In this document: positions 4,225 to 9,107 of the stretch, in pieces
Layout of the letters: each line of letters starts with the position of its first letter
Numbering within the stretch: the first letter of the stretch is position 1
Assembly (NCBI GenBank): GCA_018653605.1
Contig: JABHYY010000023.1
Location: forward strand, 1-43,029
DNA from: an archaeon
Lineage (GTDB): Archaea > Nanobdellota > Nanobdellia > SCGC-AAA011-G17 > GW2011-AR17
Direction of reading: 5' to 3'
DNA length: 43,029 nt
Made by a program: the position numbers and the translations under genes
The notes under the pieces: generated by a model
The model's input: only the letters and a program-made list of their open reading frames with translations
Told to the model about the DNA's origin: nothing
Database searches by the model: none

Positions 4225-4270
4225 ATCTTTTCAAAAAGAATCCAAGTATAAAAAGATTTGGATAAAAAAA

Positions 4271-4344
4271 TGGGACGAGAGGGATTTGAACCCTCGACAT
4301 CTAGATCTTCAGTCTAGCGCTCTCCCAGTCTGAGCTACCGTCCC
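4271..4344 (-). tRNA. tRNA-Phe (GAA), intronless, CCA not encoded
   Basis: Reverse complement GGGACGG TA GCTC AGACTGGGA GAGC G CTAGA CTGAAGA TCTAG ATGTC GAGGG TTCAAAT CCCTC TCGTCCC A: full cloverleaf. Confidence 0.96.
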
Positions 4345-4416
4345 ATTAGAAATACAAAAAATTCTCACTCTTTTAAAACTTTCTATAATAGAATTCTCAG
4401 AATACAACAGCAAGCC

Positions 4417-8887: not shown

Positions 8888-8895
8888 TTTATATA
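8888..8895 (+). promoter_or_regulatory. Probable TATA box of the interrupted tRNA-iMet gene
   Basis: TTTATATA 24-31 nt upstream of mature tRNA position 1. Confidence 0.55.
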
Positions 8896-8949
8896 GGCAG
8901 GTTTTTTACAGTTAGCATAGCGGGGTAGGACAGTCAGGAGTGTCCGTCG

Positions 8950-8980
8950 AAACATTGAAAGTAATTTTGATGTTGCGGAA
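8950..8980 (+). other. tRNA-iMet intron 1 (position 29/30, 31 nt)
   Basis: Inner 10-bp helix AACATTGAAA-GTAA-TTTTGATGTT; central 4-bp helix CCGT(8944-8947)/GCGG(8975-8978); bulges CG|A and AA|G. Confidence 0.85.
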
Positions 8981-8988
8981 GGCTCATA

Positions 8989-9008
8989 AAGGATTCGTTC
9001 CTAGAGAC
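8989..9008 (+). other. tRNA-iMet intron 2 (canonical position 37/38, 20 nt)
   Basis: Inner helix AGGA-TTCGT-TCCT; central helix CTCA/AGAG with one A.A mismatch; bulges TA|A and AC|A. Confidence 0.8.
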
Positions 9009-9014
9009 ACCCGG

Positions 9015-9045
9015 AAAAGAGTAGTTTTGATTGCTCTTTGGTTAT
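9015..9045 (+). other. tRNA-iMet intron 3 (position about 43/44, 31 nt; exact boundary least certain)
   Basis: Inner 9-bp helix AAAGAGTAG-TTTTGA-TTGCTCTTT; central helix ACCC/GGTT with one C.U mismatch; bulges GG|A and AT|A. Confidence 0.7.
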
Positions 9046-9055
9046 AGGTCGTTGG

Positions 9056-9086
9056 AAGTAGCTTTCGTAAGGAAATTACTGGCGAA
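9056..9086 (+). other. tRNA-iMet intron 4 (position 53/54, 31 nt)
   Basis: Inner helix AGTAGCTTTC-GTAA-GGAAATTACT (one mismatch); central helix CGTT(9050-9053)/GGCG(9081-9084); bulges GG|A and AA|T; removal restores GTTGG TTCAAAT CCAAC. Confidence 0.85.
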
Positions 9087-9107
9087 TTCAAATCCAACCC
9101 CCGCTAT

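Follow-up and report, generated by a model that had tools for sequence, protein, structure and literature searches.

A four-intron initiator tRNA gene in a DPANN archaeon and its proposed invasion by introns with the help of neighbouring LAGLIDADG nucleases

How does an initiator tRNA-Met (iMet) gene come to be interrupted four times? The published maximum is three introns per tRNA (PMC4033280, PMC8450103), and the multi-intron tRNAs of Thermoproteales are viewed as recent gains, their mechanism of intron transposition being called unknown (PMC4090602). The question is raised by a locus in the window, as we call the whole stretch of 43,029 nucleotides of archaeal DNA analysed here. A first-pass annotation made from the sequence had described the locus as an iMet gene with four bulge-helix-bulge (BHB) introns in a DPANN-type genome, and the genome is indeed of the Woesearchaeota/Nanoarchaeota type. 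Absent from that annotation is the most telling part of the locus, a homing-endonuclease gene that abuts the tRNA gene.

The interrupted gene and its splicing machinery

Removal of the four introns (Table 1) leaves five exons that join into a perfect 75-nt initiator tRNA-Met, AGCGGGGTAGGACAGTCAGGAGTGTCCGTCGGGCTCATAACCCGGAGGTCGTTGGTTCAAATCCAACCCCCGCTA, which ARAGORN reads as tRNA-Met(cat) with a fully paired cloverleaf (-31.4 kcal/mol). The four junctions, the cloverleaf and the CAU anticodon had been annotated exactly to the base; they were found again by an exon search that chains exons by dynamic programming, allows introns anywhere and had the junctions withheld, its profile consisting of intact iMet genes of relatives and the proposed mature form. 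The search recovered the identical four introns at 8919-9106 with a score of 99.4, and with a next-best score of 28.5 over both strands of the whole 961 kb genome (a 93%-complete assembly) the second iMet gene whose existence the annotation had left open was not found. In standard tRNA numbering the junctions lie at about 29/30, 37/38, 43/44 and 53/54, corresponding to nt 31, 39, 45 and 55 of the mature form, by which we refer to them. As foreseen for generic tRNA finders, neither ARAGORN nor Rfam matched the unspliced locus, and all but one of the partly spliced versions gave no gene or the wrong tRNA with ARAGORN. In genomes of this kind initiator tRNAs escape generic finders, and their genes may be counted as missing. 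The window also holds an ordinary, intronless tRNA-Phe(GAA) gene at 4270-4345 on the minus strand.

Table 1. Coordinates of the iMet gene, its introns and the adjoining features in the window
Feature	Coordinates	Strand	Remarks
Candidate archaeal TATA box TTTATATA	8888..8895	+	about 24-31 nt upstream of the tRNA; proposed from reading the sequence
iMet exon 1 (nt 1-31)	8919..8949	+	exon search, ARAGORN
Intron 1, 31 nt, after nt 31	8950..8980	+	central helix CCGT/GCGG, 4/4 pairs; 10-bp hairpin
iMet exon 2 (nt 32-39), CAU anticodon	8981..8988	+	exon search, ARAGORN
Intron 2, 20 nt, canonical position 37/38	8989..9008	+	central helix CTCA/AGAG, 3/4 pairs
iMet exon 3 (nt 40-45), 6 nt	9009..9014	+	exon search
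Intron 3, 31 nt, after nt 45	9015..9045	+	central helix ACCC/GGTT, 3/4 pairs; 10-bp hairpin
iMet exon 4 (nt 46-55)	9046..9055	+	exon search
Intron 4, 31 nt, after nt 55	9056..9086	+	central helix CGTT/GGCG, 4/4 pairs; position is one of two tied to family-A endonucleases
iMet exon 5 (nt 56-75)	9087..9106	+	exon search, ARAGORN
LAGLIDADG homing endonuclease, family A, 251 aa	9108..9863	-	convergent with the tRNA; ends 2 nt beyond the tRNA 3' end

The layout noticed at first in the 31-nt introns is common to all four, each consisting of 1 nt, a hairpin and a 6-nt tail made up of a 4-nt strand that pairs with the exon and 2 further nt. Hairpin z-scores are -3.2, -1.1, -4.8 and -1.1 for introns 1 to 4, and judged by their central helices introns 2 and 3 are slightly relaxed rather than strict BHB introns. 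Intronless full-length iMet genes are present in four genomes of the same family (G002, G005, G013 and G014; identity up to 91%), and another family member, G012, carries three introns, at nt 31, 39 and 45, with hairpins that differ from those of the window. Over 69 iMet loci of the order the number of introns ranges from 0 to 6, with recurring positions at about nt 7, 15, 22, 31, 39, 45, 55 and 61, and all mature forms that were checked fold as tRNA-Met(cat). Five introns are found in G042, G067, L225 and L295 and apparently six in G031 (L213), those at nt 4 and 22 being less certain. The insert after nt 4 of the G031 gene measures 16 nt, and a 16-nt insert occupies the same place in G071 (L267). 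That four introns are exceptional, as first annotated, is true against the maximum of three published for Thermoproteales and does not extend to these relatives.

Across relatives the central helix between exon and intron has a mean of 3.5-4.0 of 4 pairs compared to 1.2-1.8 for other intron 4-mers, and pairing exceeds that of between-locus shuffles at nt 15, 31, 39 and 55 (P from <0.0005 to 0.003). The covarying pairing points to maintained splice sites. As relatives of the same family have intronless copies and the exon-intron pairing covaries across relatives, we consider it practically certain that the four introns of the window are real and of the BHB type. Introns at the same position have their splice-site ends in common and differ largely in internal sequence, and with so little internal sequence shared the co-transfer of introns is only putative. 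A rule that held in the first set of loci, by which the nt-45 intron never occurs without the nt-39 intron, was dropped as L243, L244 and L298 break it.

The genome encodes both activities expected for BHB introns: one splicing endonuclease gene (PF01974, 187 codons), to which the N. equitans catalytic subunit 3IEY_A is closest in the PDB, and one RtcB ligase gene (548.6 bits). A profile search of the genome revealed no paralogue of the splicing endonuclease above noise, exactly one such gene is present in 16 of the 18 genomes of the family, and from the single gene we infer an alpha4 assembly. In the literature, relaxed introns are associated with (alpha-beta)2 or epsilon2 enzymes that carry special loops (PMC6379350, PMC12397907), and Thermoproteales combine an (alpha-beta)2 enzyme with the Crenarchaea-specific loop. 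In contrast, the single gene found here resembles no known broad-specificity type, the kind of enzyme for which the annotation had suggested a check, and alignment with the A. pernix enzyme, which has the insertion, shows that the loop is absent; an M. jannaschii sequence served only as one row of the paralogue-search profile, and the loop comparison is independent of that row. A lineage with a single gene and no loop calls into question the rule by which relaxed introns depend on specialised loops in the splicing endonuclease.

Neighbouring nucleases and intron position

Searched alone, the window nuclease had no match in Pfam, while 9 of the 10 members of the family-A alignment match LAGLIDADG_3. 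The window protein carries the motifs CGVMAGDG and GLVDTD with conserved Asp37, Asp141 and Asp143, and the motif aspartates vary little or not at all across the alignment. Structural matches to its AlphaFold model (pLDDT 93, pTM 0.91) include LAGLIDADG homing endonucleases, among them I-Tsp061I and I-DmoI, which are encoded in archaeal introns, as well as the maturase bI3 and a bifunctional enzyme. As homologues and structure agree, the identity of the nuclease is settled despite the Pfam miss: judged by sequence and model the protein has the LAGLIDADG fold, two motifs and the catalytic acidic residues. Some family-A frames (L189, L212, L193 and others) continue antisense into the tRNA and end in tails such as AGEGFEP, a trap for annotation.

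Across DPANN archaea, related nucleases are encoded next to iMet genes that carry introns. In the order, introns are present in 25 of 26 iMet genes with an adjacent nuclease compared to 25 of 43 without one (p = 4e-4; the loci are related by descent and Fisher p-values overstate their independence). The sole exception to the rule that a nuclease implies an intron is G085 (L175), in which a LAGLIDADG protein with a helix-turn-helix is encoded 97 nt downstream of an intronless iMet gene. The adjoining nucleases belong to family A, that of the window, to family B, another LAGLIDADG group, to family D and to smaller groups, and each type goes with its own position: A with nt 43-46 or 55, B with nt 31 and three other types with nt 15. 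The matching position is occupied in all 23 loci of the order with a typed family (permutation p = 1e-5, family A being permitted two positions).

This rule was first seen post hoc and then written down before further loci were fetched, and families A and B only were retested. An intron at nt 43-46 or 55 was present in 18 of 18 later family-A loci versus 16 of 39 intron-bearing loci without family A; the 18 comprise named genomes located by the protein alone and G071, were counted only if an iMet gene was present, and span records labelled Woesearchaeota, Nanoarchaeota and Aenigmatarchaeota. Likewise, later family-B loci, taken at class level from strong matches, carry the nt-31 intron in 9 of 9 cases versus 17 of 44 comparison loci, and in L299 and L300 this intron stands essentially alone. 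Four loci (L233, L239, L249 and L266) were left unjudged as the contig ends there. Family D (L199, L183 and L218; G078, G088 and G094) lies beside iMet genes with nt-15 introns; the two members scanned have no Pfam match, and the conserved residues suggest a PD-(D/E)XK homing endonuclease. Outside the typed families, a LAGLIDADG gene of G072 adjoins an iMet gene whose only intron is at nt 39. That the type of the neighbouring enzyme predicts the site of interruption suggests that archaeal tRNA introns owe their spread to such selfish enzymes.

The phylogeny of the nucleases departs from taxonomy, the window nuclease forming a group (support 95/85 and 99/95) with the nucleases of G087 and G089, genomes of another family, and not with that of G012 from its own. 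Among the close relatives of genus g67 introns and nucleases come and go together: G092 and G093 are intronless and have no nuclease, G091 and G095 have family A with introns at nt 39 and 45, and G094 has family D with an nt-15 intron. In G077 a degenerate family-A gene lies beside an intact nt-55 intron. These states, empty, occupied, decayed and intron-only, resemble a homing cycle. As all members of the window nuclease's clade carry the nt-55 intron, intron 4 is its likeliest partner, and introns 1 to 3 would then be relics of other invasions.

The association reaches beyond iMet. Each of the five LAGLIDADG genes of this genome has an intron-bearing tRNA gene no more than 150 nt away (p ~3e-8 for adjacency), the chance that a random interval of comparable size is near a tRNA being 3%. 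Of 20 further LAGLIDADG genes sampled systematically in the order, about 11 abut a detectable tRNA, mostly >80 nt long, and some other tRNA-adjacent nucleases adjoin intronless tRNAs.

Homing and the alternatives to it

We propose that free-standing homing endonucleases help protein-spliced BHB introns to invade the iMet gene repeatedly. Each nuclease family would recognise one stretch of the uninterrupted gene, and as an intron at either end accompanies family A, the family-A target would cover about nt 43-56. The nuclease would cut intron-free alleles, and repair from the donor would copy the intron and the adjoining nuclease gene together, the donor being immune as the intron splits the target. 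Excision of the intron from the RNA in vivo by the splicing endonuclease and RtcB would keep the tRNA functional. Upon fixation the nuclease would decay and the intron remain, and nucleases of other families would later add introns at other positions, the order of these invasions being one that we infer. The 25 intron-bearing iMet loci that are now without a nuclease mean that nuclease loss must be assumed under the homing reading. Homing by the adjacent nuclease, with successive invasions piling up introns, is in our judgement a probable account of the locus. We hold with slightly more reserve, and still favour, the wider proposal that dedicated free-standing homing endonucleases carry the protein-spliced tRNA introns of DPANN archaea, each family assigned to one region of the tRNA, and that waves of invasion, fixation and loss led to four to six introns.

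A reading that we regard as unlikely is that the introns arise or spread otherwise and are kept by the host as a shield for iMet, an essential gene, against nucleases or integrating viruses, with nucleases surviving only beside resistant genes. The same rule, no nuclease without the matching intron, is expected from it, introns last without nucleases, and Randau and Soll, as cited in PMC4090602, proposed that introns protect against integration. However, it leaves unexplained both why a nuclease gene should lie only tens of nt from the target presumed for it and why the two turn over rapidly as a pair inside one genus, and protection already belongs to the homing model. We disfavour as improbable the notion that tRNA genes are permissive landing sites for standalone nuclease genes and that the correlation with introns is incidental; LAGLIDADG genes are abundant, occurring in 91 of 103 genomes, and some adjoin intronless tRNAs, and yet intron position follows nuclease family in loci collected once the rule had been written down, and family A flanks iMet specifically.

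There is little to recommend the idea that the nuclease-like protein is a maturase that helps to splice the adjoining pre-tRNA. Some LAGLIDADG proteins are maturases, bI3 and the bifunctional enzyme are among the structural matches, and the splicing endonuclease here lacks the loop that has been tied to relaxed substrates, but the catalytic acidic residues are conserved and many iMet genes with several introns lack a neighbour of this kind. We give almost no credence to a decaying pseudogene with another iMet in its place, for which the incompleteness of the assembly might leave room, as removal of the introns gives a perfect product, no other iMet was found, and the pairing covariation indicates maintained splice sites.

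If true, the wider proposal would provide the missing explanation of how archaea gain tRNA introns, and it might hold for other archaea as well. The pairing of family and position would be a concrete mechanism, with each target site predicted to within ~20 bp, and multi-intron tRNAs would be the outcome of one invasion upon another of a target that is both essential and highly conserved.

Relation to known systems

At the window locus the nuclease gene is outside the intron and yet linked to it, as in the collaborative homing of phages, in which a free-standing endonuclease encoded next to an intron is believed to cleave the site where the intron inserts, thereby mobilising both (PMC10448857). 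The window system appears to work like collaborative homing. Phage introns, however, are self-splicing and reside in phage genes, whereas here protein-spliced introns of tens of nt reside in cellular archaeal tRNA genes. No Rfam intron match that would indicate a group I self-splicing intron was obtained at the window locus, where the introns are 20-31 nt long with BHB pairing, and we do not class the system as classical collaborative homing because its introns are protein-spliced. Archaeal rRNA introns that encode LAGLIDADG enzymes of the I-DmoI type are BHB introns too, and these enzymes share the fold of the window protein; unlike it they are encoded inside the intron, whereas the window gene lies outside the tRNA on the opposite strand. 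A further likeness is found in the Asgard archaea Atabeyarchaeia and Freyarchaeia, in which more than half of the tRNA genes are multi-intron, many at non-canonical positions; the excerpt of that report mentions no homing endonuclease and states no maximum per tRNA (PMC11291895). A partial literature search, with most subscription journals outside its scope, returned nothing on nucleases next to archaeal tRNA introns and nothing on tRNA introns in Woesearchaeota.

Several other tRNA genes have LAGLIDADG neighbours. In G000, C31 73225-73345 on the minus strand (L024) looks by eye like a tRNA-Arg(UCU) gene interrupted twice (~29/30 and 37/38), which ARAGORN mistakes for Thr, and its neighbour is a LAGLIDADG gene at C31:73338-74276. 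An intron-bearing tRNA near C28 11270 of G000, by eye Val(UAC) with a D-loop intron, abuts a LAGLIDADG gene, and so does each of the intron-bearing tRNAs at C38 3088-3202 and C15 8834-8964. In L278, L280, L283 and L275 a LAGLIDADG gene lies between two different tRNA genes, for example Asn and Ile, and as the flanking tRNAs differ, target duplication was rejected as the origin of this arrangement. In the same archaeal order, a group I intron (Rfam RF00028, 84.8 bits) at L305 674-869 (G065) adjoins a LAGLIDADG match.
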